53,659 bases of DNA, taken from NCBI GenBank assembly GCA_902826575.1, contig CADEFJ010000009.1, positions 1 through 53,659 of the forward strand, read 5' to 3'. The position numbers and the translations under genes were made by a program. The DNA comes from an uncultured Pseudomonadota bacterium (GTDB taxonomy: Bacteria > Pseudomonadota > Gammaproteobacteria > Steroidobacterales > Steroidobacteraceae). This document shows positions 10,972 through 22,254 of the stretch, piece by piece (the first letter of the stretch is position 1; every line of letters begins with the position of its first letter). The notes under the pieces were generated by a model. It saw only the letters and a program-made list of their open reading frames with translations, was not told where the DNA came from and searched no databases.

Positions 10972-11285
10972 CCATGCAGAGCCTGTCGGTGACCCTGGGC
11001 CGCATCGTCGAGGAAGAGGAAGCCCTGAACGTGGATGAGCTCAGTCGTCTCTGTGCAGTCGAGCAATCGTTCATCCTCGAGTTGGTGCAGGAGGGTGTGC
11101 TCGAATCCCAGGGCGCCGCCGAGTCGCGCTTCGTGGGACGCTCGCTGCGCCGGGCGCGACTCGCGGTGAGGCTGCGGCGCGATCTCGGCATCAACGTCGC
11201 CGGCGCGGCCCTGGCCATCGAACTGCTGGAACGCATCGAGACGCTCGAACGGTACCAGGACAGCTTCCCCGGAGGTGCAAGATGA
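10968..11285 (+). CDS. cbpM: CbpA modulator CbpM
   Basis: A 105-residue MerR-like protein that in E. coli binds the J domain of CbpA and blocks both its DNA-binding and co-chaperone activities. It has the expected short helix-turn-helix-like layout: an N-terminal acidic stretch (IVEEEEALNVDELSRLCAVE), LVQEGVLESQG, then RRARLAVRLRRDLGINVAGAALAIELLERIETLE. Length and order match the family. Its ATG overlaps the cbpA stop, giving translational coupling and a controlled CbpA:CbpM ratio; its own stop overlaps the next gene, so the two following genes are probably co-transcribed. Confidence 0.88.
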   Translation: MTMQSLSVTLGRIVEEEEALNVDELSRLCAVEQSFILELVQEGVLESQGAAESRFVGRSLRRARLAVRLRRDLGINVAGAALAIELLERIETLERYQDSFPGGAR

Positions 11286-12007
11286 TCACCGATACCCAGT
11301 CCGGCACGAACATCAACGAAGTGGCCGACGGCATCTACCGGATCAATACGCCGGTCGCCATTCCGGGCGGCCCGGGCAAGTTCAATTTCAATCAGTACCT
11401 GATCGTGGACGATGCGCCGATGTTGTTCCACACCGGCCAGCGACAGTTGTTTGCGCTGGTGCAGGCAGCGATGAATACCGTGCTGCCCGTCGATCGCCTG
11501 CGATTTATCGGGCTTTCGCATTTCGAGGCCGACGAGTGCGGGGCGCTGAATTTGTTCCTGGCCGCAGCGCCGCAGGCCGCGCCTGTCTGCGGCCAGGTGG
11601 CTGCCATGGTCGCCATCAACGATTTTGCCGAGCGCGCGCCGCGCATCCTCGCGGACGGCGAAAGCCTGTCACTCGGTCGCCACGTGATGCGCTGGTTCGA
11701 CACGCCGCACACCCCGCATTCCTGGGAGTGTGGCCTCGCGATGGACATGACGACCCGCACATTCTTCTGCGGCGACCTGTTCACGCAAGGCGGCGCCGGC
11801 GAAGTGGCGATCACCGAGTCCGACATCCTCGGACCCAGCGAGAGCTTCCGCGTGGCGATGGACTACTATGCGCATTCACCGCAAACGGGCGCGATCCTGG
11901 AACGCCTCGCCGGCGAGCAACCGACGACGCTCGCCTGCATGCACGGCAGCGCGTGGCGCGGCGACGGCGCGAAATTGCTGCGCGCGCTGTCCGCATCCCT
12001 GGCTTGA
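11282..12007 (+). CDS. MBL-fold protein, oxygen-binding diiron (ODP)-like
   Basis: A 241-residue metallo-beta-lactamase-fold protein of the type found in flavodiiron proteins, but without a flavodoxin domain. The first metal motif reads SHFEADECGA, that is H-x-E-x-D-E, so it keeps the Glu that distinguishes diiron oxygen reductases from zinc hydrolases, with Glu in place of the second His. Further ligands: His in DTPHTPHSWECG, Asp in FFCGDLFTQGG, His in ACMHGSAW. Likely role: an iron-dependent oxygen- or NO-linked activity or sensor; the redox partner is not evident. Its start overlaps cbpM by 4 bases (ATGA). Family assignment is solid, catalytic function is inference. Confidence 0.8.
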   Translation: MITDTQSGTNINEVADGIYRINTPVAIPGGPGKFNFNQYLIVDDAPMLFHTGQRQLFALVQAAMNTVLPVDRLRFIGLSHFEADECGALNLFLAAAPQAAPVCGQVAAMVAINDFAERAPRILADGESLSLGRHVMRWFDTPHTPHSWECGLAMDMTTRTFFCGDLFTQGGAGEVAITESDILGPSESFRVAMDYYAHSPQTGAILERLAGEQPTTLACMHGSAWRGDGAKLLRALSASLA

Positions 12008-12034
12008 GCGGCCCGGAAACACTGGAGGTACGTC

Positions 12035-12469
12035 ATGACCAGCGAGAAGACATACGACGGGGGCTGCTTCTGCGGCGCAGTGCAGTTCACGGTGACCGGC
12101 GAGCCGGCCGCGATGGGCTACTGCCACTGCGACTCGTGTCGCCATTGGTCGGCCGGACCGGTCAACGCCTTCACGCTCTGGGCGCCGGCTGCGCTGCGGA
12201 TCACACGCGGCGCCGACGGCATCGGCGCGTACAACAAGACGCCGGCCAGCATTCGCAAATGGTGCAAGAACTGCGGCGGGCACCTGTTCACCGAGCACCC
12301 GCAATGGAACCTCGTGGATGTCTATGCAGCCCTGATTCCCGGCTTTCCGTACCAGGCCGGCGTCCACGTCCACTATCAAGAGACGCGCCTGCCGATGAAG
12401 GATGGCCTGCCCAAGTTCAAGGACATCCCGGCGGAGATGGGTGGCTCAGGGGCCCTGCTCGCCGAATAG
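12035..12469 (+). CDS. GFA family zinc protein
   Basis: A 144-residue member of the GFA family, named for glutathione-dependent formaldehyde-activating enzyme. Zinc ligands are visible as GGCFCGAVQF, GYCHCDSCRHWS and WCKNCGGHLF, the normal order. The family is broad, and most members have no shown activity with S-hydroxymethylglutathione, so the name gives the fold rather than a reaction. A GGAGG precedes the ATG by about 6 bases. The gene follows the ODP-like gene by 27 bases on the same strand and is probably the end of the cbpA operon. Its stop lies one base from the 3' end of the tRNA gene on the opposite strand. Confidence 0.85.
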   Translation: MTSEKTYDGGCFCGAVQFTVTGEPAAMGYCHCDSCRHWSAGPVNAFTLWAPAALRITRGADGIGAYNKTPASIRKWCKNCGGHLFTEHPQWNLVDVYAALIPGFPYQAGVHVHYQETRLPMKDGLPKFKDIPAEMGGSGALLAE

Positions 12470-12470
12470 C

Positions 12471-12547
12471 TGGCGCGCCCGGAGAGATTCGAACTCCCGA
12501 CCCTCAGGTTCGAAGCCTGATGCTCTATCCGGCTGAGCTACGGGCGC
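12471..12547 (-). tRNA. tRNA-Arg(TCG)
   Basis: The minus strand folds as a 77-base tRNA with encoded CCA. Acceptor GCGCCCG pairs with CGGGCGC, the anticodon stem TCAGG/CCTGA encloses loop CTTCGAA with anticodon TCG, and the T arm carries GTTCGAATC. The discriminator base is G. Reads CGA codons. A CATATT hexamer (12558-12563, minus) about 10 bases upstream could be its -10. It lies in the 112-base interval between the GFA gene and the regulator; no integrase or att-like repeat is seen beside it. Confidence 0.96.
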
Positions 12548-12581
12548 GAGACGCGCAATATGCCTATCGCGCGCAATGGAG

Positions 12582-13241
12582 TCACGCGTCGCGTGCCGAC
12601 GCATCGCGGGGCAGGAAGCGGAAGCGGCACACGTGGCCGCCCTTCGCCATGCATTCGTGCAGCTCGACTTTCTTGCCGGTGTAGCTCGTCATCAATGCGA
12701 GATCGAACTGGCAGACTGCGCTGTTCTGCATCGCGAGCGCGTGGAATACGCAGTTGTCGGCTTCGATCGTCGGCGCGCCGCCGACATCGCGGACCTTGCG
12801 CGCGTCATAGCCGAGCTGGTCCATGAGCGTCGAGAGGTCCTCGACCTTGTCGTGCCCGCTCGCGCCCGTAAGCGCTGGCGCTGGCGCGGGCAGTTGCGCG
12901 ACAACGGTTGCGGCAATGCGTCCGAGGCGCGTGCGCAGGCCCGCCGTCCCATGTTCCTGCGCAATGGCTTCGACGAGCAGGCGGGCGAACCAGGAGTAAC
13001 GCCGGGGAAAGACTTCGCGGCCAGCCTCGGTGAGCACGTGCAGACGCACGGGCCGCCCGCCGGTTTCGCGCTCCGCGCCCGGCTCGACGAGCCCGTCGCG
13101 CATAAGCGCGGCCAGGTGCTGGCGCACCGCAGTACGCGTGACGCCGAGCGCCTGAACCAGTTCGTCGACCGAGGCGCCCGCCTTGTTCCTGAGCAGGTGC
13201 CGTAACAGGCGACGGCGGCGATCACCGAAGAGTTCATCCAT
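12582..13241 (-). CDS. Winged-helix regulator with four C-terminal cysteines (SufR-like)
   Basis: A 219-residue transcription regulator. The N-terminal winged helix-turn-helix (about 5-75; VDELVQALGVTRTAVRQHLAALMRDGLVEP, then a GGRPVRLHVLTEAG wing) is of the ArsR/SufR kind. The C-terminal half ends with Cys164, Cys177, Cys197 and Cys205 (spacing C-x12-C-x19-C-x7-C), a layout suited to an iron-sulfur cluster; SufR has a comparable C-x12-C first pair. So the protein may sense cluster status, oxygen or redox. It is divergent from the exported protein at 13320 with a 78-base AT-rich spacer holding a direct repeat, so it probably controls that promoter and its own. The cluster is inference; the DNA-binding domain is clear. 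Confidence 0.8.
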   Translation of the reverse strand: MDELFGDRRRRLLRHLLRNKAGASVDELVQALGVTRTAVRQHLAALMRDGLVEPGAERETGGRPVRLHVLTEAGREVFPRRYSWFARLLVEAIAQEHGTAGLRTRLGRIAATVVAQLPAPAPALTGASGHDKVEDLSTLMDQLGYDARKVRDVGGAPTIEADNCVFHALAMQNSAVCQFDLALMTSYTGKKVELHECMAKGGHVCRFRFLPRDASARDA

Positions 13242-13253
13242 GCTTTTGGCATA

Positions 13254-13273
13254 TTAGTATTTCTTTAGTGTTT
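13254..13273. promoter_or_regulatory. Direct repeat TTAGTRTTT, candidate operator
   Basis: TTAGTATTT (13254-13262) and TTAGTGTTT (13265-13273) are spaced 11 bases start to start, one DNA turn, in an AT-rich island between the divergent regulator and exported-protein genes. This position and spacing suit a dimeric winged-helix regulator. On the minus strand a TAATAT lies 9 bases before the regulator ATG. Confidence 0.45.
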
Positions 13274-13319
13274 TTGCGAGCGTAAAACATGGATTCATCA
13301 ACCAACCCGGAGAGTACCC

Positions 13320-14009
13320 ATGAAAGCGCTACTGCCCACCCTGCTCGCCACCGCACTTGCGACTGCCGTGCCTGGCCTCGCCAGCGCATCCACGCAGCAC
13401 GCCAGCGCTGCCGCGACCGCGGCCGCGACCGCCACCACGGCAACTACCCCTGCCGCCGCCACCGTACCTGTCAAGGTCGCCGCGACCCGCAACGCGCTGC
13501 GCGACCTGTGGATCGGCCACGTCTTCTGGGTGCGCAACGTCGTCGTCGCCCGTTATGACGACAACAGCGCCGCCGCCAGGGCTGCCGAGGCGCAGGTGGT
13601 CGCGAACGCCAAGGCCATCGCCGGTGCGATCGAGCCGTTCTATGGCAAGGCCGCCTCCGACAAGCTGTTCGGTCTGCTCGCTGGCCACTGGGGCGCGATC
13701 AGTGACCACATCGACGCCACGAAGAAGGGCTCGAAGGCCGGCCAGGACGCCGCGACCGCGAAGCTCCTCGCCAACGCGAACGAGATCGCCGATTTCCTCG
13801 CCGGCGCCAATCCCAACTGGCCGGTGGGTACCTTGCGGGGGCTTCTTTCGGCGCACGGCGCGCACCACATCCAGCAGGACCAGCAGCTGCACGACGGTCA
13901 GTACGACGCCGAGGCGCGCAACTGGGCGGCGATGTCGGCGCACATGTACGTGATCGCCGACGCGTTGGCCGACGGGCTCGCGGCGCAGTTCCCCGACAAA
14001 TTCCGCTGA
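13320..14009 (+). CDS. Exported protein of unknown function
   Basis: A 229-residue exported protein. Signal peptide 1-24 (ending LASAS), then an Ala/Thr-rich low-complexity stretch (about 25-50), then two related helical segments: LRDLWIGHVFWVRNVVVARY and, later, LRGLLSAHGAHHIQQDQQLHDGQY, each followed by a helical stretch. Conserved-looking His and Trp residues (GHVFW, GHWGAISDH, HGAHH) hint at metal or haem binding, but no known motif is complete. I do not recognise the family. It begins 78 bases from the divergent cysteine-rich regulator and has GGAGAG about 7 bases before the ATG. The first of three consecutive exported orphans. Confidence 0.75.
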   Translation: MKALLPTLLATALATAVPGLASASTQHASAAATAAATATTATTPAAATVPVKVAATRNALRDLWIGHVFWVRNVVVARYDDNSAAARAAEAQVVANAKAIAGAIEPFYGKAASDKLFGLLAGHWGAISDHIDATKKGSKAGQDAATAKLLANANEIADFLAGANPNWPVGTLRGLLSAHGAHHIQQDQQLHDGQYDAEARNWAAMSAHMYVIADALADGLAAQFPDKFR

Positions 14010-14026
14010 GCGCAACCCTGCGCGCC

Positions 14027-14032
14027 TATACT
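14027..14032 (+). promoter_or_regulatory. Candidate -10 (TATACT) for 14072 gene
   Basis: TATACT stands 39 bases before the ATG at 14072, in the 62-base gap after the preceding gene, and gives a leader of about 33 bases containing the AGGGGAA ribosome binding site. No matching -35 is seen. Confidence 0.4.
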
Positions 14033-14071
14033 GGCCGGCAAGATCGGCCATCCAGGCCGGCAGGGGAAAAC

Positions 14072-14827
14072 ATGAACAAGGGAACTGTCATGGCGGCGGC
14101 GATGGCGTCGCTCGTCTCGGGATGGCTGTCCGGCGCAGCGCTCGCGCAGGACAAGCCTCCCGAGACGTTCATTTACTCCACCTACTTCAAGTGTGACGTG
14201 GCCCGGCAGGAGCGCGCCGACGAGATCATGAAGGAACTGCAGAAGCCACTTTGGGACGCTGCGGTCGACGACGGAACCGTGGCCTCCTGGGGCTGGCTCG
14301 TCCACCACACGGGCGGTGGATGGCGTCGTGCGCAGTACTTCGGCGCAAGCAGCCTCGAGGCGCTGCTGGCGGCGCAGAAAAAACTCGGCGACCAGGCCGA
14401 CGCGAAGAACAGCAAGCTCGGGGCCGAGTTCGCCGCGATCTGCAATGCGCACGACGACTACATCTGGAGGGCCGTCGCGGGCAAGGGCAACGAGGGGTCG
14501 CGTGGCGGTGCAAGCTTCTCGGTGTACTACACCTGCGACCAGAGCCGCGAGGATGAGGTGGATGCGCTCGTCAAACAGGTATTCGCGCCGATGTATGACC
14601 AGCTCGTCCAGGACGGCACACTGAAGTCCTGGGGCTGGAATGAGCACATCGTCGGCGCGCAGTATCGCCGGCTCTCGACGATCACCACGGCCGACGTGCC
14701 CTCGCTGCTGAAGGCACGCACTGCGGTGGTCGAGGCACTTCAGAAGAACCCGCTGTCGCGCAGTTTCGACGCGCTGTGCGGGTCGCACGCCGACTACATC
14801 TGGGAGATCGGCGCCGAAAGGCCCTGA
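14072..14827 (+). CDS. Exported protein with tandem duplicated domain
   Basis: A 251-residue exported protein: signal peptide 1-25 ending AALAQ, then two copies of one approximately 100-residue unit (about 34-134 and 148-247). Each copy has F-x-Y-[ST]-x-Y-[FY]-x-CD, a helix, DGT[VL].SWGW, an alpha/beta segment and C-x-x-H-x-DYIW at the end. The Cys pairs are 41/124 and 155/236, so each unit may hold a disulfide. The alternating pattern resembles a dimeric alpha-beta barrel fused head to tail, but I cannot name a family. Good ribosome binding site (AGGGG) before ATG 14072. Divergence between the copies shows the duplication is old. Confidence 0.8.
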   Translation: MNKGTVMAAAMASLVSGWLSGAALAQDKPPETFIYSTYFKCDVARQERADEIMKELQKPLWDAAVDDGTVASWGWLVHHTGGGWRRAQYFGASSLEALLAAQKKLGDQADAKNSKLGAEFAAICNAHDDYIWRAVAGKGNEGSRGGASFSVYYTCDQSREDEVDALVKQVFAPMYDQLVQDGTLKSWGWNEHIVGAQYRRLSTITTADVPSLLKARTAVVEALQKNPLSRSFDALCGSHADYIWEIGAERP

Positions 14828-14891
14828 GGTGCGCCAACGGGAATGGCCGCTGAACCCAGCCTGAACGCGGCAAATGTGGCCTCGGGGGGGA

Positions 14892-14916
14892 GGCAGGCCC
14901 TAATATAGGGCCTGCC
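14892..14916 (+). repeat. 11-bp stem-loop with TAATAT at its tip
   Basis: GGCAGGCCCTA and TAGGGCCTGCC form a perfect 11-bp inverted repeat around a 3-base loop. The tip contains TAATAT (14901-14906), a plausible -10 for the gene at 14945. No T-run follows, so it is a weak intrinsic terminator; an operator overlapping a promoter is the alternative. Confidence 0.6.
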
Positions 14917-14944
14917 CTCCTACTCCGACCCGAGGATGTCATCC

Positions 14945-15313
14945 ATGAAGCTGTTGATTGCCGCCGCAACACTCGCCCTTGCCGTCATCGGCGGACCCGT
15001 CTACGCGGCCTGCACCTATCCGACGAGCCCGGACAAGATACCAAACGGCGCCACCGCGTCGATGGAAGACATGCTCGCAGCCAAGAAGCAGGTGGAGCAG
15101 TACAACAAGGATATGAACGCCTACATGTCGTGCATCAAGCTAGAGTACGACTCTCAGGTCGCGAGCAACGACGGCACGCTCACCGCCGAGCAAAAGGCGG
15201 AACTCGAGAAGCGCCAGGTGCAGAAGCACAACGCCGCGGTCGACGAGCTCGAAGCTGTCGCCGGTCGCTTCAACGAGCAGGTCAAGGCTTACAAGGCCGC
15301 AAACGCCAAGTAA
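14945..15313 (+). CDS. Small exported protein, coiled-coil
   Basis: A 122-residue secreted protein with signal peptide 1-22 (MKLLIAAATLALAVIGG, cut near YAA). The mature part is helical and charged, with two Cys (CTYPT at the start and MSCIKLEYDS) and repeated QVEQYNKDMNAYM / RQVQKHNAAVDELEAV heptad-like stretches; a short coiled coil or periplasmic chaperone-like fold is possible. No family recognised. An ATG lies at 14936, but a GAGG abuts it directly; the same GAGG is about 8 bases before ATG 14945, which I therefore prefer. Third in the run of exported unknowns. Confidence 0.75.
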   Translation: MKLLIAAATLALAVIGGPVYAACTYPTSPDKIPNGATASMEDMLAAKKQVEQYNKDMNAYMSCIKLEYDSQVASNDGTLTAEQKAELEKRQVQKHNAAVDELEAVAGRFNEQVKAYKAANAK

Positions 15314-15335
15314 CACCCGCATTGCGCCAGGTGCG

Positions 15336-15351
15336 ACCCGCGATCGCGGGT
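15336..15351. repeat. Perfect 16-bp palindrome upstream of moaA
   Basis: ACCCGCGATCGCGGGT is a perfect palindrome in the 94-base gap between the small exported gene and moaA. It could be a terminator stem for the former (no T-run) or an operator for the molybdenum cofactor operon. Confidence 0.5.
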
Positions 15352-15395
15352 TGACCCTGCGCAAGCGATCGCTGTACCTGCGCGGCCACGGGCGC

Positions 15396-15401
15396 GACAA
15401 T
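15396..15401 (+). promoter_or_regulatory. Candidate -10 (GACAAT) for leaderless moaA operon
   Basis: GACAAT is exactly 6 bases before the moaA ATG at 15408 (GCCCAC between), leaving no room for a ribosome binding site. No consensus -35 or MoCo-riboswitch-like leader fits in this gap. Confidence 0.4.
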
Positions 15402-15407
15402 GCCCAC

Positions 15408-16463
15408 ATGGCCCCGACCGACTCGCCCATCCCGATCACTCGCGCGCGCGGCCCGCGGGACGTGCGCGGGCGGCCGATGCACGACCTGCGCATCTCGGTC
15501 ATGGATCGCTGCAACTTCCGCTGCACCTATTGCATGCCGCGGGAGACTTACCACGAGCGCTACCGTTTCCTGAAGAGTGCCGAACGCCTGTCGTTCGACG
15601 AAATCGTGCGCATTGCGCGCCTGTTCGTCGCGCTCGGCGTGCGCAAGCTGCGCATCACGGGCGGCGAGCCGCTGCTGCGCCCCAATCTCGCCGACCTGGT
15701 CGGCGACCTGACCACCCTCGCCGGCGTGGAGGACGTGGCGCTCACGACCAACGGCGTGCTGCTCGCGAAGTACGCGAGCGAGCTCAAGGCCGCCGGCCTC
15801 GATCGGGTCACCGTGAGTCTCGACAGCATCGACCCGCAGGTGTTCCGCGCCCTGAGCGGCGACTTCGACGAGTTGGACGCCGTGCTCGAGGGCCTCGAGC
15901 ATGCGCAGCGCGCCGGCCTGACGCCGATCAAGGTGAATGCGGTGATCCAGCGCGGCATCAACGACGCCGGGGCGCTCGACCTCGCCGCGCGCTTTCGCGG
16001 CACCGGCGTCAGCGTGCGCTTCATCGAGTACATGGATGTCGGCAATCGCAACCAGTGGACACCCGAACTCGTGGTGCCCTCCTCCGAACTGCACGCACGC
16101 ATCCACGCCCGCTGGCCACTCGTGCCGCGCGGTCGCAGCTATGTCGGTGAGGTGGCCGATCACTATGCCTATGCCGACGGCCAGGGTGAAATCGGCTTCA
16201 TCTCTTCCGTGTCGCAGCCGTTCTGCGGCGACTGTTCGCGCGCGCGCCTGTCATCGGACGGTGCGCTCTACACCTGCCTGTTCGCGACGCACGGGCTCGA
16301 CCTGCGCGCGCCGTTGCGGGCCGGGGCGAGCGATGAAGAGCTGCTGGCGATCATCCGCGGGCGCTGGAGCCAGCGCGCCGACCGTTACAGCGAATTGCGC
16401 GCCACGCAGCGGGCGGCCGCTGCGCCCGAGCGCAAAGTCGAAATGAACTACATCGGCGGCTAG
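15408..16463 (+). CDS. moaA: GTP 3',8-cyclase MoaA
   Basis: Radical-SAM enzyme for the first step of molybdenum cofactor synthesis, GTP to 3',8-cyclo-7,8-dihydro-GTP. 351 residues. N-terminal cluster motif CNFRCTYCMP (CxxxCxxC), ITGGEPLLRPN for SAM binding, and the second-cluster cysteines in FCGDCSRARLSSDGALYTCLFA. It ends MNYIGG, the conserved C-terminal double Gly needed for activity. The frame extends to 15351, but ATG 15408 (MAPTDSPIPITRARGPRD) fits the family. First gene of the collinear Moco operon; moaC follows after 12 bases. Confidence 0.96.
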   Translation: MAPTDSPIPITRARGPRDVRGRPMHDLRISVMDRCNFRCTYCMPRETYHERYRFLKSAERLSFDEIVRIARLFVALGVRKLRITGGEPLLRPNLADLVGDLTTLAGVEDVALTTNGVLLAKYASELKAAGLDRVTVSLDSIDPQVFRALSGDFDELDAVLEGLEHAQRAGLTPIKVNAVIQRGINDAGALDLAARFRGTGVSVRFIEYMDVGNRNQWTPELVVPSSELHARIHARWPLVPRGRSYVGEVADHYAYADGQGEIGFISSVSQPFCGDCSRARLSSDGALYTCLFATHGLDLRAPLRAGASDEELLAIIRGRWSQRADRYSELRATQRAAAAPERKVEMNYIGG

Positions 16464-16475
16464 GATCAACCGACC

Positions 16476-16976
16476 ATGGCAACCCGCAAAGCCAAGCCGG
16501 CGCTGACGCATGTGGATGCCGCACGCCGCCCGACGATGGTCGATGTCGGCGCGAAGGACATCACCTTGCGTGAAGCGAGCGCCGAGGCCGTCGTGACGCT
16601 GCCACGTGCGGCGGCGCTGGCGTTGCGCCGCGGCAAGGAGCGCACGAAGAAAGGGCCGGTGTTCGACACCGCCATCGTCGCCGGGGTCATGGCTGCAAAG
16701 CGCACGCACGAGTTGATTCCGTTCTGCCACCCGCTCGCGCTCGAGCGCTGCCGCATCACGATCGAGCAGCCCCGCGCGGGCCGCATCGTCATCCGCTGCG
16801 ACGTGGCAGTGCACGGGCGCACGGGCGTCGAGATGGAGGCGCTCACCGGCGCCGCCGGCGCCGCACTCACGCTGTACGACATGACGAAGGCCCTGTCGCA
16901 CGACATCGTTATCGAGAGCGTGCGACTGATTGCAAAGTCCGGCGGCAAACGCGACTTCCGCCGCGCGCGGCGATGA
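16476..16976 (+). CDS. moaC: Cyclic pyranopterin monophosphate synthase MoaC
   Basis: Converts the MoaA product to cyclic pyranopterin monophosphate. 166 residues, the normal size. Conserved stretches: THVDAARRPTMVDVGAKDIT, the central GPVFDTAIVAGVMAAKRTHELIPFCHPL (catalytic Lys, His), and the C-terminal GVEMEALTGAAGAALTLYDMTKAL. Cytosolic hexamer in homologues. Lies 12 bases after moaA, and its stop overlaps the ATG of the fused mobA-moaD gene by 4 bases, so the three are translationally coupled. Confidence 0.96.
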   Translation: MATRKAKPALTHVDAARRPTMVDVGAKDITLREASAEAVVTLPRAAALALRRGKERTKKGPVFDTAIVAGVMAAKRTHELIPFCHPLALERCRITIEQPRAGRIVIRCDVAVHGRTGVEMEALTGAAGAALTLYDMTKALSHDIVIESVRLIAKSGGKRDFRRARR

Positions 16977-17815
16977 ACGCGCTCGCGCCGCTGTTTGGCC
17001 TGGTGCTGGCCGGCGGGCGCAGCACACGCATGAAGCGCGACAAGGCCGCGCTCGCCTATCACGGCGAGGCGCAGCTCGAGCACGCATGGCGGCTGCTCGC
17101 GCCCGTCGTTGCGCAGCGTTACGTCTCGGTGCGCGCCGACCAGCAGGACGATCCGCTGCGCGCGGGCTATCCGCAGATTCGCGATTCGATCGCGGATGCG
17201 GGGCCGGCCGCCGGCATCCTGGCGGCCCTCAATGCGCACCCGGATGCAGCATGGCTCGTACTGGCCTGCGACCTGCCGTATCTCGATGCGCGCACGCTCG
17301 GCAGTCTCGTCGCGCAGCGCGATGCCGGGCGACCTGCGACCGCCTATCGCAGCGCGCACGATGGCCTGCCCGAGCCGCTGTGCGCGATCTGGGAGCCCGG
17401 CAGCCGCGGGCCGCTCGCCGCGGCGGTGGCCAGCGGGCGCAGCTGCCCGCGCAAATTCCTGATCCATGCCGGCGCGTTGCTGCTCGATCCGCTCGTCCCG
17501 CACGCACTCGACAACGTGAACGAAAGCCACGAGTATTGGTCGGCCATGAGCTTGCTGAACACCACGCCTGCCCAGCTGCACATCAAGGTCCAGTATTTCG
17601 CCTTGCTGCGCGAGCAGGCGGGCCGCAGCGAAGAGTCGCTGGCGACCCGCGCCCGCACACCCCGCGATCTCTACGATGAGCTGCGCGTGCGTTATCCGTT
17701 CACGCTGCCGCCCGAGTTGCTGCGCGTTGCCGTAAACGCGCAGTTCGGCGACTGGTCACAACCGCTCGCCGACGGCGACGCGGTGGTGTTCATTCCGCCC
17801 GTCGCGGGCGGCTGA
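16973..17815 (+). CDS. MobA-MoaD fusion protein
   Basis: A single 280-residue frame joins two Moco proteins. Residues 1 to about 192 are a MobA-type nucleotidyltransferase (GLVLAGGRSTRMKRDKAAL with the LAGGxSxRM nucleotide motif, PAAGILAAL, VLACDLPYL, ending DNVNESHEYWSAM), which would add GMP to molybdopterin. Residues about 200-280 are a complete MoaD, the ubiquitin-like sulfur carrier of molybdopterin synthase (LHIKVQYFALLREQAG, VAVNAQFGDW, DAVVFIPPVAGG), with the essential free C-terminal Gly-Gly. An in-frame ATG at 17546 sits at the domain boundary and could also give a separate 89-residue MoaD, though its ribosome binding site is weak. MoaD must dock on MoaE and MoeB, both in the next gene. 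Confidence 0.9.
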   Translation: MNALAPLFGLVLAGGRSTRMKRDKAALAYHGEAQLEHAWRLLAPVVAQRYVSVRADQQDDPLRAGYPQIRDSIADAGPAAGILAALNAHPDAAWLVLACDLPYLDARTLGSLVAQRDAGRPATAYRSAHDGLPEPLCAIWEPGSRGPLAAAVASGRSCPRKFLIHAGALLLDPLVPHALDNVNESHEYWSAMSLLNTTPAQLHIKVQYFALLREQAGRSEESLATRARTPRDLYDELRVRYPFTLPPELLRVAVNAQFGDWSQPLADGDAVVFIPPVAGG

Positions 17816-17826
17816 GGACTCCCGCA

Positions 17827-19416
17827 GTGCCGCGCTTTCGCTTCACCGGTGCACCGATCGACGTCGCTGCCGCGAAACGCGAACTCACCGATCCCGCGTT
17901 TGGTGGCCATGTGTCCTTCGAGGGCTGGGTCCGCGACTTCAACGAGGGCCGCCAGGTCGAGCATCTCGAGTACGAAGCTTTCGAACCGCTGGCGTTGCGC
18001 GAGGGCGAGCGCATCCTCGCCGAGGCCTGCGAACACCACGGCGTCACACATGCCGTCTGCATTCACCGGCTTGGCGACCTCGCCATCGGCGAACTCGCCG
18101 TGTGGGTCGGGGCCAGCGCGCCACATCGGGACGAGGCGTTCCGCGCGTGCCGCCAGATCATCGATGAGGTCAAGCACCGCGTACCGATCTGGAAGAAGGA
18201 ACACTACGTCGATGGCGACTCGGGCTGGGTGAACTGCGAGCGCTGCGCGACGGCCCCCCTCGCCCCGCATGAGCCCTGGCACGGGCACGGGCATCAAGGT
18301 GAAACGCACGCGCATACCCACCCCCACGCGGATCACGCTGCACCCGCCCCCGCGCCGGACTACTCGCGGCAGATCGCGCTGCGCGAAGTCGGCCCTGCCG
18401 GCCAGGCGCGCCTTGCGGCCGCGTCGGTGCTGGTCGTCGGCGCAGGCGGCCTCGGCGTACCGGTGCTGCAGTACCTGGCCGCCGCCGGCGTTGGGCGTCT
18501 CGGCATCGTCGATCACGACCTGCTCGAACCCTCGAACCTGCACCGGCAAACGATGTACGCGCTCGCCGACTGCGGCCAGCCGAAGGCGCAGCTTGCGGCT
18601 GCGCGACTGCGCGCACTGACACCGGCGCAGATAGATGTCCATGCCACGCGACTCGATGCGTCGAACGCATCGGGTCTGCTCACGCCCTACGACATCGTCG
18701 TCGACTGCACGGACAACTTCGCGACCAAGTTCCTGTTGAACGATGTTGCGCTCGCACTCGGGCGCATCGCCGTGTTCGCGAGTGTCTATCAGTACGAGGG
18801 GCAACTGCAGGTCGTCGATCCCGGGCGCGGCACGGCCTGCCTGCGCTGCGTGTGGCCCGCCGCCACGCGCGACGGCCTCGTGGGCAATTGCGAAGCCGCC
18901 GGCGTGCTCGGACCGGTGCCGGGAACGCTTGGCACGCTGCAGGCACTCGAAGTGCTGAAGATCCTGCTCGATTTGCCGGGCCGCCTCGGCGACGATGTGC
19001 TGTTGATCAACCTGCTGTCACTGGCCACGACCCGTTTGCAGGCGCGGCCGGCAGCGGATCACCACTGTCACGGCAGGCGACCCGCCGCAACCGCGCCTGC
19101 CGACATCGACATCAGCTTCGATTCGCTCGCCGCCGCCGCGGACGCGGGTTTCACCATCGTCGATATACGCGAGTCCGGGGAAACCGCCGCAAGCCCGCTC
19201 GTCGGGCAGGCCGTGCAGGAATTGCCGCTCGGAGCGCTGCTCTCCGGTGCGCCGCTCGCACCCGGTGAGCGCCACCTGCTCGTCTGCGCGCACGGCGTGC
19301 GCAGTCACGCTGCGGCCGAGGCGCTGCGGGCGCGCGGCATGCCCGCGGTGTATTCGCTGCAGGGTGGCACGGCAGCGCTGGCGCAGCGGCGCCGGGGCGC
19401 TCAGGCGCGCGTCTGA
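17827..19416 (+). CDS. MoaE-MoeB-rhodanese triple fusion
   Basis: One 529-residue protein holds three Moco activities. MoaE, 1-140: the synthase large subunit, with catalytic Lys116 and Lys123 in the [11 protein letters not shown] block. A linker, 148-170, has nine His in 23 residues. MoeB/ThiF-type adenylating domain, about 180-415: GAGGLG (205-210), acidic Asp230, SNLHRQ, DCTDNF, CLRC (338-341), Cys355 in GNCEAAG. Rhodanese, about 425-525: active-site CAHGVRS with Cys487. MoeB activates the MoaD C-terminus and the rhodanese would supply the sulfur, as in MOCS3/Uba4. The usual second CxxC zinc pair of MoeB is reduced to HHCHG (412-416). GTG start 17827 follows mobA-moaD by 11 bases with a GAGG. 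The 3' end overlaps proA by 16 bases. Confidence 0.92.
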
Positions 19417-20675
19417 CCGACGCCGCGCACCACGTACTTGTAGCTCGTCAGCTGTTCAACGCCCACCGGACCACGCGCGTGGAAGCGGTCGGTGGAGATG
19501 CCGATCTCCGCTCCCATGCCGAACTCGCCACCGTCGGCGAACTGCGTCGACGCATTGTGCAGCACGATCGCGCTGTCGACGCGCGTGAGGAAACGCTCCG
19601 CGGTCGCCGTGTTCGCCGTGACGATCGCCTCGGTATGTGACGACCCGTAGCGGGCGATATGCGCAATCGCCGCGTCGACGCCATCAACGACGCGTGCCGC
19701 GATCACCGCATCGAGATACTCGGCGGACCAGTCCGCCTCGTCGGCGGCGCGAACGCGCAGATCCACCGCCTGGACGGTCTCGTCGCCGCGCACTTCGCAA
19801 CCGGCATCGAGCAGGTCGCGCACCAGCACCGCGAGCAGTCCGGGGCCCGCGGCACGGTCGACGAGCAGCGTCTCGGCGGCCCCGCATACGCCTGTGCGTC
19901 GCAGCTTCGCGTTGTGCACTATCGAGCGTGCCATGCCTGCATCGGCATCGCGATCGACATAAACGTGGCACACACCTTCCAGGTGCCCGATCACCGGCAC
20001 GCGGGCTTCGGCGCGCACACGCGCGACCAGCGCCTTGCCACCGCGCGGCACCAGCACGTCGATGTACTCGCGCATGCCGCCGAGCATGCAGCCCACGGCT
20101 TCGCGATCGGTGGTCGGCACGAGCTGTATCGCCTCGAGCGGCAGGCCCGCGGCCTCGAGGCCCGCGGTGAGACAGGCGTGGATCGCGTGGCTCGAACGGG
20201 TGCTTTCCGACCCGCCGCGCAGGATCACCGGATTGCCCGACTTCAGGCACAGGGCGCCGGCATCCGCGGTAACGTTCGGGCGACTCTCGTAGATGATGCC
20301 AATGACGCCGAGCGGCACGCGCACGCGCTGGAACAGCAGGCCGTTCGGCTGACGCCACTGCCCGGCAATGGCGCCCACCGGATCCAGCAGCGCCGCAATC
20401 GCATCGAGTCCGCGTGCCATCGACTCGATCCGCGCGGGGTCCAGGGCAAGCCGGTCGAGCAGCGCGTGCGACAGGTCCCTGGCGCGCGCCGCCGCCATGT
20501 CTTCGGCATTGGCTGCAAGGATGTCGGCCGAGCGTGCGCGTATCGCAGCGGCGGCCGCTGCGAGCGCGGCATTCTTCTGTGCCGTACCGGCCTGCGCGAG
20601 CGCCGGCGCCGCTGCTCGCGCGGCGCGGCCGATCCGCGTCATCAATTCGACGATCTGCGCCTTCGTCTCACTCAT
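19401..20675 (-). CDS. proA: Gamma-glutamyl phosphate reductase
   Basis: Second step of proline synthesis: reduces glutamyl-5-phosphate to glutamate-5-semialdehyde with NADPH. 424 residues. Aldehyde-dehydrogenase fold with [43 protein letters not shown], the catalytic Cys in [15 protein letters not shown], and the C-terminal [30 protein letters not shown] 20675 begins [11 protein letters not shown]; the frame is open to 20699. It overlaps the proB stop by 8 bases, so proB-proA is an operon and the two products can channel the unstable intermediate. Convergent 16-base overlap with the Moco fusion gene. Confidence 0.96.
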
Positions 20676-21834
20676 TTTCGGTAGCCACCTCGTCGGCAAC
20701 GACGACCAGGTCGTCGCGGTGAATCATTTCATCGCGACCGCGATAGCCGAGCAGCTCGTCCAGTTCGCGGGTCTTGCGCCCCATGATGCGCGTGACATCG
20801 CCGTCGGCGTACGCCGCGATGCCCCGCGCGAACTCGCGCCCTTGTGGCGTGATGACGCTTACGGTGTCACCCCGATCGAAGCGGCCGCGAACACCTGTCA
20901 CGCCCGCCGGCAGCAGGCTCTTGCCGGCGCGCAGGGCGCGCAGGGCGCCCTCGTCGATCAGGATCGCGCCGTTCGGCCGCAGCGATCCGGCTATCCACTG
21001 CTTTCGCGCGGTCCGCGGATTGCCCTGCGGGACGAACCACGTGCAACGTGCGCCGCGCTCGATGCGGCGCAGCGGATGCTTGTGCGCTCCGGCGGCGACG
21101 CACAAGTGCGCACCGGCCGACACGGCAATCCGTGCGGCCGCCACCTTGGTGGCCATGCCGCCCGTGCCGAAGTCGGAGCGTGCGGTACCGGCCATCGCCT
21201 CGATTGCCGCTGTCACGCGTACCACGCGATCGACGAACTGCGCGTTCGCATCGACGTTCGGATCGGCCGTGTAGAGACCTTCGACGTCGGACAACAGCAC
21301 GACGCAGTCGGCCGAGGCCATTTGCGCAACACGCGCGGCCAGCCGGTCATTGTCACCGTAGCGGATTTCGGTGGTCGCGACCGTATCATTCTCGTTGATC
21401 ACCGGCACCGCGCCGAGTCCCAGCAGGCCATTGAGCGTGGCGCGCGCATTGAGGTAGCGGCGGCGACGCTCACTGTCCTCGAGGGTCAGCAGCACCTGGG
21501 CGACCGTGACGCCCTGCGCTTCGAACACTTCTTTATAGGCGTGCGCCAGCCGGATCTGGCCGACGGCCGCGGCCGCCTGGCTGGCCTCGAGGCGCAGTGC
21601 ACCGCCGGGCAGGCCGAGCTGGCGCCGCCCGAGCGCAATCGCGCCCGATGACACCAGGATGATCTGCTGGCCTCGCCGGCGCATGCGCACGAGGTCCGCC
21701 GCGAGAGTTTCGAGCCAGGCGCGATTCAGCCGCCCGGTGGTCCCGTCGACGAGCAGGGACGAGCCCACCTTGACGACGATGCGGCGGGCTTTGGCGAGCG
21801 GCGAGGCCGGCGAAACCGGTCTTCTGGTCTGCAT
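20668..21834 (-). CDS. proB: Glutamate 5-kinase with PUA domain
   Basis: First and regulated step of proline synthesis: ATP plus glutamate to glutamyl-5-phosphate. 388 residues. Amino-acid kinase domain 1 to about 270 ([86 protein letters not shown]) and a C-terminal PUA domain, about 290-380, that takes part in proline feedback in homologues. Starts at ATG 21834 ([23 protein letters not shown]). A TATACT at 21870-21875 on the minus strand gives a short leader. Downstream proA overlaps. Confidence 0.96.
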
Positions 21835-21869
21835 GGTGGGGGTGGAAAATCCGGGGGGAACCCTGCCGC

Positions 21870-21875
21870 AGTATA
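21870..21875 (-). promoter_or_regulatory. Candidate -10 (TATACT) for proBA
   Basis: TATACT on the minus strand, 35 bases before the proB ATG, is a close match to the consensus -10. No good -35 is evident. It is divergent from the TACTAT assigned to the acidic-protein gene. Confidence 0.42.
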
Positions 21876-21913
21876 CGGCACTGGCGCGTTGCCTCGGCTC
21901 CGGGGTGCCCGCA

Positions 21914-21919
21914 TACTAT
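21914..21919 (+). promoter_or_regulatory. Candidate -10 (TACTAT) for the acidic-protein gene
   Basis: TACTAT lies 26 bases before the GTG at 21946, leaving a short leader with an AGGA 8 bases before the start. Confidence 0.38.
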
Positions 21920-21945
21920 TCGCTGGCGACAACAGGATCCGCACC

Positions 21946-22254
21946 GTGAGCAGAGATTACCAACCCACACCCGGCCAGTGGTACGAGAACGTCGAGGAGG
22001 AGGAAACCTTCCGCGTGTTGACCGTGGACGAGGACTCCGAGTTGATCGAGATCGAGTATCTCGATGGCGAAATCGAGGAGATCGACGTCGAAACCTGGCA
22101 CGAGATGGATCTCGAGAAGGTCAGCGAGCCCGAAGGCTGGGCCGACCGCGATGACGATGACGATGACGACGATGAAGACGAAGATGATGATGATGACGAC
22201 GATTGGGATGACGACGATGACGACGACGACGACGACGACGACGAGGATCGTTGA
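21946..22254 (+). CDS. DUF6763-like acidic protein with poly-Asp tail
   Basis: A 102-residue cytosolic protein. The first about 65 residues form a small beta-rich domain (YQPTPGQWYE, FRVLTVDEDSELIEIEYLDG, IEEIDVETWHEMDLE) resembling the small DUF6763 family of gammaproteobacteria. The last 36 residues are almost only Asp and Glu, with one Trp, encoded by a GAC/GAT/GAA run. Start: GTG 21946 with AGGA 8 bases upstream; an ATG at 21889 would add residues without family resemblance. The tail could bind cations or basic proteins, or mimic nucleic acid; its length is probably variable because the repeat can slip. Function unknown. Confidence 0.78.
   Translation: MSRDYQPTPGQWYENVEEEETFRVLTVDEDSELIEIEYLDGEIEEIDVETWHEMDLEKVSEPEGWADRDDDDDDDDEDEDDDDDDDWDDDDDDDDDDDDEDR

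Follow-up and report, generated by a model that had tools for sequence, protein, structure and literature searches.

The window, by which we mean the whole stretch of 53,659 nucleotides that was analysed, carries a moaA-moaC-mobA:moaD operon, and the last gene of this operon is a fused moaE:moeB:rhodanese gene. The genes, domains and residues used below are as follows.

15351-16463, plus strand: moaA (TIGR02666 over cut-off; start codon uncertain)
16476-16976, plus strand: moaC (PF01967, E 7.4e-47; TIGR00581 over cut-off)
16973-17815, plus strand: mobA:moaD fused gene, 280 aa (PF12804, PF02597)
17827-19416, plus strand: moaE:moeB:rhodanese fused gene, 529 aa plus stop, GTG start (ORF analysis, Pfam)
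17827-18234, plus strand: MoaE domain, residues 1-136 (PF02391, fold match)
18172-18174, plus strand: Lys116
18193-18195, plus strand: Lys123
18235-18357, plus strand: linker with CxxC (Cys137, Cys140) and a His-rich stretch, residues 137-177
18358-19068, plus strand: MoeB/ThiF adenylating domain, residues 178-414 (PF00899, fold matches)
18889-18891, plus strand: catalytic-type Cys355 of the E1 domain
19105-19413, plus strand: rhodanese-like domain, residues 427-529, active loop CAHGVR (PF00581, Uba4 fold match)
19285-19287, plus strand: Cys487 of the rhodanese active loop

The fused protein and its operon

ORF analysis found no internal stop in the fused frame; its GTG start comes 11 bases past the stop codon of mobA:moaD and has a GAGGA in front of it. 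Pfam placed MoaE (PF02391) at residues 8-118 (E 2.1e-35; 121.8 bits against a cut-off of 23.4) and ThiF (PF00899) at residues 179-414 (E 6.3e-67; 225.6 bits against 28.1). The rhodanese is marginal by sequence: PF00581 just passed its cut-off of 22.2, with 23.5 bits, in a scan of only the last 109 residues, and the scan of the whole protein at 1e-3 reported no rhodanese. Together with the fold match described below, these results give an E1-like domain followed by a rhodanese, which is the order of the MOCS3/Uba4/MoeBR type. Of 26 NCBIfam models that matched the fused protein, none of the 25 listed reached its cut-off. The best score among those listed was that of the MoeB equivalog NF006444 (277.3 bits against 449), and the MoeB equivalog TIGR02355 (155.2 against 376.55), the MoeZ equivalog NF005902 (209.3 against 647) and the E. 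coli-type MoaE equivalog NF007959 (70.1 against 175) also stayed below theirs. TIGR02356 (ThiF), at 215 bits, scored above TIGR02355 (MoeB), at 155. We read the N-terminal domain as a MoaE family member outside the E. coli-type NF007959 equivalog, and we filed the middle domain as E1-like, presumably acting like MoeB, outside the MoeB and MoeZ equivalogs.

An AlphaFold model of the fused protein, built from 56 aligned sequences, had a mean pLDDT of 88.9 and a pTM of 0.64. The MoaE, ThiF and rhodanese regions were confident, and pLDDT fell below 50 at residues 139-162 and 164-168. The model thus points to a low-confidence linker of about 30 residues that is probably disordered. The first PDB match in Foldseek was full-length Uba4 (6yub_A), aligned over 417 columns (chain length, 423 residues) with an rmsd of 17.7, which implies that the two domains are placed differently relative to each other. 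From the length of this match, its aligned ranges not being displayed, we infer that it takes in the rhodanese. E. coli ThiF and MoeB matched with TM scores of 0.88-0.91 by target length (ThiF about 0.90, MoeB 0.88-0.90), and the MoaE structures 2qie and 9jbd matched with TM scores of 0.93 and 0.91 by target length.

Residue conservation was read from an alignment of 56 rows, which are the window and 55 of the 85 available references. Every residue of the following set was present in 56 of 56 rows: Arg36, His100, Lys116 and Lys123 in MoaE; Gly208, Asp231, Asn237, Arg240, Lys253, Asp296, Cys338, Cys341 and Cys355 in the E1 domain; and Cys487, Gly490 and Arg492 in the rhodanese. Among the 89 unique fused sequences, Lys116 and Lys123 were found in 88 (1 gap), Cys355 in all 89 and Cys487 in 87 (2 gaps). 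We take Lys116 and Lys123 to be the active-site pair of MoaE and Gly208, Asp231, Asn237, Arg240, Lys253 and Asp296 to be nucleotide-site residues; these roles, like those of Arg36 and His100, are assumed from known enzymes. Cys355 and Cys487 are presumably placed like the two relay cysteines of MOCS3. In MOCS3, the two-cysteine relay consists of rhodanese Cys412 and Cys239 (PMC5372717, available part). The initial annotation had described one 529-codon frame holding MoaE, MoeB and a rhodanese with Lys116, Lys123 and Cys487 in place, and the uninterrupted ORF, Pfam, the fold matches and the alignment all agree with this description.

The E1 domain also holds zinc-type pairs. The first is Cys338/Cys341. 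At the place of the second, residues 408-422 (19048-19092), the window reads DHHCHG, and an automatic pattern over 89 rows gave C..H in 44, C..C in 27, H..H in 8, H..C in 4, none in 5 and missing in 1. This place is unusual and is a putative metal site.

The MoaD domain encoded at 16973-17815 stands behind MobA and ends in a free Gly-Gly. MoaD therefore does not share a chain with MoaE, as it does in MoaX, and is encoded in the adjacent frame. A profile search of the genome from which the window comes found one MoaE, one ThiF-family match and one MoeA, with mobA:moaD as the sole ThiS/MoaD-family match; this is an assembly of 225 contigs that is 89% complete, and absences from it are provisional. 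Within that assembly we found no second E1 or sulfur carrier that could take over. Each of the six other genomes of the genus showed a single ThiS/MoaD-family match; three of them had a further ThiF match that passed the Pfam cut-off, and the other three did not. The operon holds the sole MPT synthase parts found in the assembled genome, and MobA-MoaD is the sole Ubl carrier found there.

Downstream, on the opposite strand, lie an aldehyde-dehydrogenase-family ORF and an ORF with amino-acid kinase and PUA domains, which are most likely proA and proB. An ORF of 121 aa at 21889-22254 ends in a long Asp/Glu run. Rfam at gathering thresholds gave no molybdenum-cofactor riboswitch in 11000-22000; it gave a tRNA gene alone (12474-12547, minus strand).

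Distribution and probable history of the fusion

We used the fused protein as a query to fetch 99 distinct loci, and the fractions below describe this family, not bacteria at large. Both genes were present in 96 of the loci, and MoaE and MoeB were fused in 89 of these. Of 215 relatives, 80 were retained in the GTDB scan; 73 of the 80 were fused, with isolates of Povalibacter uvarum, Rhodanobacter, Dyella and Frateuria among the carriers; the other 7 were split at one junction. There were 36 family genomes including that of the window: 24 fused, one split (G012) and 11 with MoaE and no MoeB in frame. One of the 24 (G005) has a run of 100 N inside the gene, and its frame is unproven there.

Beyond the family, 28 of 196 sampled genomes of the window's order matched at 1e-72 or better, 27 of them fused and one split (again G012), as judged by an ORF check or by the absence of internal stops from the row. 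Four of the strong matches had a row with an in-frame stop; the fetched loci showed these four, and one partial match, all to be fused (5 of 5). At the level of the class, only 2 of 369 sampled genomes matched at this level, both of the window's order. The phylum sample had a MoaE match in 197 of 249 genomes, and a frame-length check of the matches listed, besides the window's own, gave five frames of at least 450 aa (L118-L122), none with a MoeB match, and so no further MoaE-ThiF fusion among them.

The fusion is real and is conserved in a bacterial lineage. The initial annotation had pointed to a stop or frameshift between the domains as the observation that would speak against it, and had proposed the fusion for this one gene; its spread across the lineage had been missed. 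Since the window comes from a 225-contig assembly that is 89% complete, an assembly or gene-calling artefact was worth considering. The fused copies in 73 of 80 GTDB loci, isolates among them, and in a one-contig genome (G016) refute it, and we give it next to no chance.

Some records carry labels that do not fit their content. Two loci, L035 and L056, are titled as Klebsiella pneumoniae MAGs and carry the operon of this lineage. Their species label is probably wrong: on the tree, L035 has its E1 domain among sequences of the window's family, and L056 has exactly the same fused frame as L013 (family genome G018). A third locus titled Candidatus Hydrogenedentota (L103) has a fused gene that groups with the order-level L026 and L028 (support 85, unstarred); transfer, misbinning and mislabelling are candidates.

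The operon order is the same in relatives, and all six genes lie inside the fetched stretch in 67 of the 99 distinct loci. MobA and MoaD were fused in 59 of the 95 distinct loci holding both. This second fusion was also present in three loci with an unfused MoaE (L029-L031), and MoaC-MobA fusions were seen in the operons of L019, L071 and L090. A moaD-moaE fusion occurred in 0 of 99 distinct loci.

We placed 115 E1 domains on a quick tree that spans Steroidobacteraceae and Rhodanobacteraceae, has SH-aLRT supports only and carried long-branch warnings; L022, from the genome with the run of N, was excluded from it and from the linker counts. The 88 fused and 7 split rows fell on one side and 20 stand-alone rows on the other (97, starred). 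The seven split rows make up a single clade (100, starred) that branches within the fused rows; the forks that nest it there have supports of 85 and 87, unstarred. Each of the seven split loci has a stop at the end of MoaE, followed 1-2 codons on by the ATG or GTG start of MoeBR in the same frame. Fission would leave such a shared frame; between ancestral neighbours it would arise by chance with a probability of one third. The simplest reading, which is not firm, would be one fusion followed by one later fission. It is also possible that the split state is ancestral, because the starred branches force just one change. The fusion most likely arose once, through loss of the stop codon between the adjacent operon genes moaE and moeBR, and a CxxC/His tail that MoaE already had would have turned into the linker.

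Loss of that stop codon need not have brought any gain beyond equal expression, with each domain keeping its normal job. Such a neutral fusion fits the operon, where other neighbouring pairs have joined as well (MobA-MoaD in 59 of 95 loci, MoaC-MobA in 3 of 91), and it fits a linker predicted to be disordered and a split clade whose junction is in frame. That clade keeps the genes untethered, which implies that the tether is dispensable. However, 88 of the 95 rows on this side of the tree, which spans Steroidobacteraceae and Rhodanobacteraceae, are fused, albeit among loci fetched with the fused query, and none of the 99 loci has a moaD-moaE fusion, in which the tail of MoaD would be blocked. 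We regard a neutral fusion as possible and somewhat unlikely.

A CxxC/His-rich tail of MoaE

We examined the stretch between MoaE and the E1 domain in the 88 fused proteins. A CxxC was present in 74 of them. The stretch ranged from 8 to 107 residues (median, 33), and His made up 668 of the 3,045 linker residues (21.9%) compared with 2.5% in the rest of the proteins. At least 4 His were found in 78 of the 88 linkers, and fewer than 2 in three (L024, L026 and L028). In the 56-row alignment, Cys137 was kept in 56 rows and Cys140 in 48.

A linker of this kind could be a place where the protein is cut after translation into MoaE and MoeBR, much as MoaX is processed into its MoaD and MoaE parts (PMC4326299, available part). 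A disordered linker of about 30 residues, as the AlphaFold model suggests, would suit such a cut. However, MoaX must be cut since its MoaD tail is blocked, and no tail is blocked here; moreover, the varying length and sequence of the linkers show no fixed cleavage site. We think that cleavage has only a slim chance of being right.

We then compared the linker with the ends of MoaE proteins that are not joined to MoeB. These counts describe picked loci and not a random sample (L118-L131 were chosen for long frames and L172-L211 by hand from other listed rows), and they exclude six loci missed by the pattern (L030, L181, L198, L203, L205 and L206). In the window's order, 16 of the 22 unfused MoaE parsed end with CxxC, in a number of cases with His after it. 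In the phylum sample, the CxxC tail was found in 0 of the 37 parsed MoaE with short ordinary tails, and all 12 long-tailed MoaE had CPGC at that place. A domain scan took in 8 of these 12 (L122, L125, L128 and L193 lay outside it) and found a MoCF_biosynth domain, of the MogA/MoaB type, after the linker in 8 of 8. The MoaE-MoCF_biosynth fusions, all from other Pseudomonadota, are L118, L120, L123, L124, L126, L129, L130 and L131. Not all CPGC linkers are His-rich; those of L123 and L126 have few His.

Judged from sequence, the linker is MoaE's own tail, found in unfused relatives too, and MoaE appears to have been joined to another Moco enzyme at least twice via the same kind of tail. We offer a wider hypothesis tentatively, as one that is rather unlikely to hold. 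The CxxC/His tail may be a functional module, handling metal, sulfur or fresh dithiolene, that turns MPT synthase into a hub. Different lineages would then have independently tethered to it either MoeBR, which recharges the sulfur carrier, or an enzyme of the MogA/MoaB type, which takes up the product of MPT synthase, with MobA riding on MoaD in many of the MoeBR ones, as convergent assembly lines. That two kinds of MoaE fusion have a CxxC tail, often with many His, suggests a feature of MPT synthase that is unstudied as far as open-access PMC papers go, among which no study of a histidine-rich or CXXC MoaE was found.

A separate candidate, that the tethered adenylating domain replaces MogA, was based on the seven genomes of the genus, where no MoCF domain over cut-off was found outside frames of at least 403 aa. 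Long MoCF frames were read as MoeA by their length and, in the genus, by an adjoining MoeA_N match too. The candidate was weakened in two ways: unfused family members (G008, G009, G015 and G022) lack a MoCF domain outside long frames as well, and a genome with the fused gene (G038) has a MoCF frame of 172 aa. Across 23 family genomes, MoCF matches over cut-off occurred only in frames of more than 400 aa, the size of MoeA, with the exception of one frame of 183 aa (G021), and the profile search gave zero MoCF matches in G017. Most of these 23 genomes seem to be without a separate MogA/MoaB.

Proposed sulfur transfer on one chain, and known systems

Taken together, we consider it probable that the fused protein is a single-chain, sulfur-recharging molybdopterin synthase. 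In the known pathway, MoeB or MOCS3 adenylates MoaD and a persulfide gives MoaD-COSH; MoaD is sulfurated in the MoeB complex and then re-associates with MoaE, where sulfuration of cPMP takes two sulfurs from two carriers (PMC5372717; for the MOCS3/MoeBR mechanism also PMC3227635; available parts of both). On the fused chain, Cys487 of the rhodanese would carry the persulfide, and sulfur would go via the rhodanese, probably with Cys355, to yield MoaD-COSH. This carrier would dock in the MoaE active site at Lys116 and Lys123 and sulfurate cPMP. The flexible Cys/His-rich linker would hold the carrier's sites on one chain, and the tethered E1-rhodanese most likely recharges MobA-MoaD for the adjoining MoaE. 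All MoaD docking sites would lie on one chain, with the carrier as a separate chain whose tail is free, an arrangement that should raise the local concentration of carrier. The chemistry is deduced from homology and is apparently that of the known pathway, with its parts arranged in a new way; the reactions and any oligomer are predictions.

The initial annotation had proposed a tether between the enzyme that recharges MoaD and its consumer, and this, like the three-domain reading, is well supported by the sequence, the predicted fold, the operon and the content of the genome. It had also called the protein a possible substrate-channelling factory. Channelling in the strict sense is plausible but hypothetical: the linker is predicted to be disordered, and a related clade has the genes as two separate frames. 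Two further elements had escaped it, namely the fusion of MoaD to MobA and the identity of the linker as a conserved Cys/His-rich MoaE tail.

A tethered E1 might instead conjugate MoaD to lysines of MoaE in a regulatory manner. In Haloferax, MPT synthase is inhibited when SAMP1 is attached to MoaE, an effect that HvJAMM1 undoes (PMC4443979, available part). However, the window's genome gave no match to the Prok-JAB profile, the only profile used for this, and one of the seven genus genomes had one; in addition, the rhodanese favours sulfur transfer. We consider conjugation very improbable and keep to sulfur recharging as the preferred reading. A natural protein that brings both MoaD docking sites together, while the carrier stays outside with its tail free, would allow a direct test of whether MoeB-MoaE exchange limits molybdopterin synthesis, and the fused, naturally split and linker-variant forms could be compared with one MoaD.

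The initial annotation had regarded the triple order as uncharacterised, and we found no description of it in open-access PMC papers. Among the papers that the searches listed, none has a title or abstract opening that describes a MoaE-MoeB-rhodanese fusion; subscription papers and architecture databases lie outside this scope. The string "MoaE-MoeB" returned no open-access PMC paper, and the open-access PMC searches for a MobA-MoaD fusion and for MoaE with MogA/MoaB gave no description of the moaE:moeB:rhodanese protein. What is new here, on the sequence evidence, is MoaE's own CxxC/His-rich tail as a linker, seen in two kinds of MoaE fusion. The chemistry is probably familiar, and the protein is conserved in its lineage.

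MOCS3, Uba4 and the mycobacterial MoeBR and MoeZR have ThiF followed by a rhodanese, an order alike in the fused protein, for which Uba4 (6yub) was the first fold match. In contrast to these, MoaE is fused in front here; to our knowledge, the known proteins of this group carry no MoaE. Fusions named among Moco-synthesis proteins are MoaD-MoaE, MoaD-MoeB, MoaD-MoeBR, MoeB-rhodanese, MoaC-MoaE and MoaC-MoaB (PMC1779556, PMC11237513, PMC5372717, PMC4443979, PMC6147048, PMC3227635 and PMC4326299, available parts). MoaX and other MoaD-MoaE fusions likewise join parts of MPT synthase. MoaX has MoaD and MoaE on one chain and needs a cut to free the MoaD tail (PMC4326299, available part), whereas here MoaD is outside, attached to MobA on its N-terminal side, with its tail free. 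The archaeal MoaD-MoeB, MoaD-MoeBR, MoaC-MoaE and MoaC-MoaB proteins are Moco enzyme fusions too, and MoaE-MoeBR is absent from the archaeal fusions named in the available part of the source (PMC11237513). There is also a likeness in layout to the MoaE-MogA/MoaB-type fusions, in which a MoaE with a CxxC end, with a His-rich linker in several, is followed by another Moco enzyme, as in the fused protein. There the attached enzyme is a MoCF_biosynth domain of the MPT-adenylylating type, whereas here it is the sulfur-supply enzyme.
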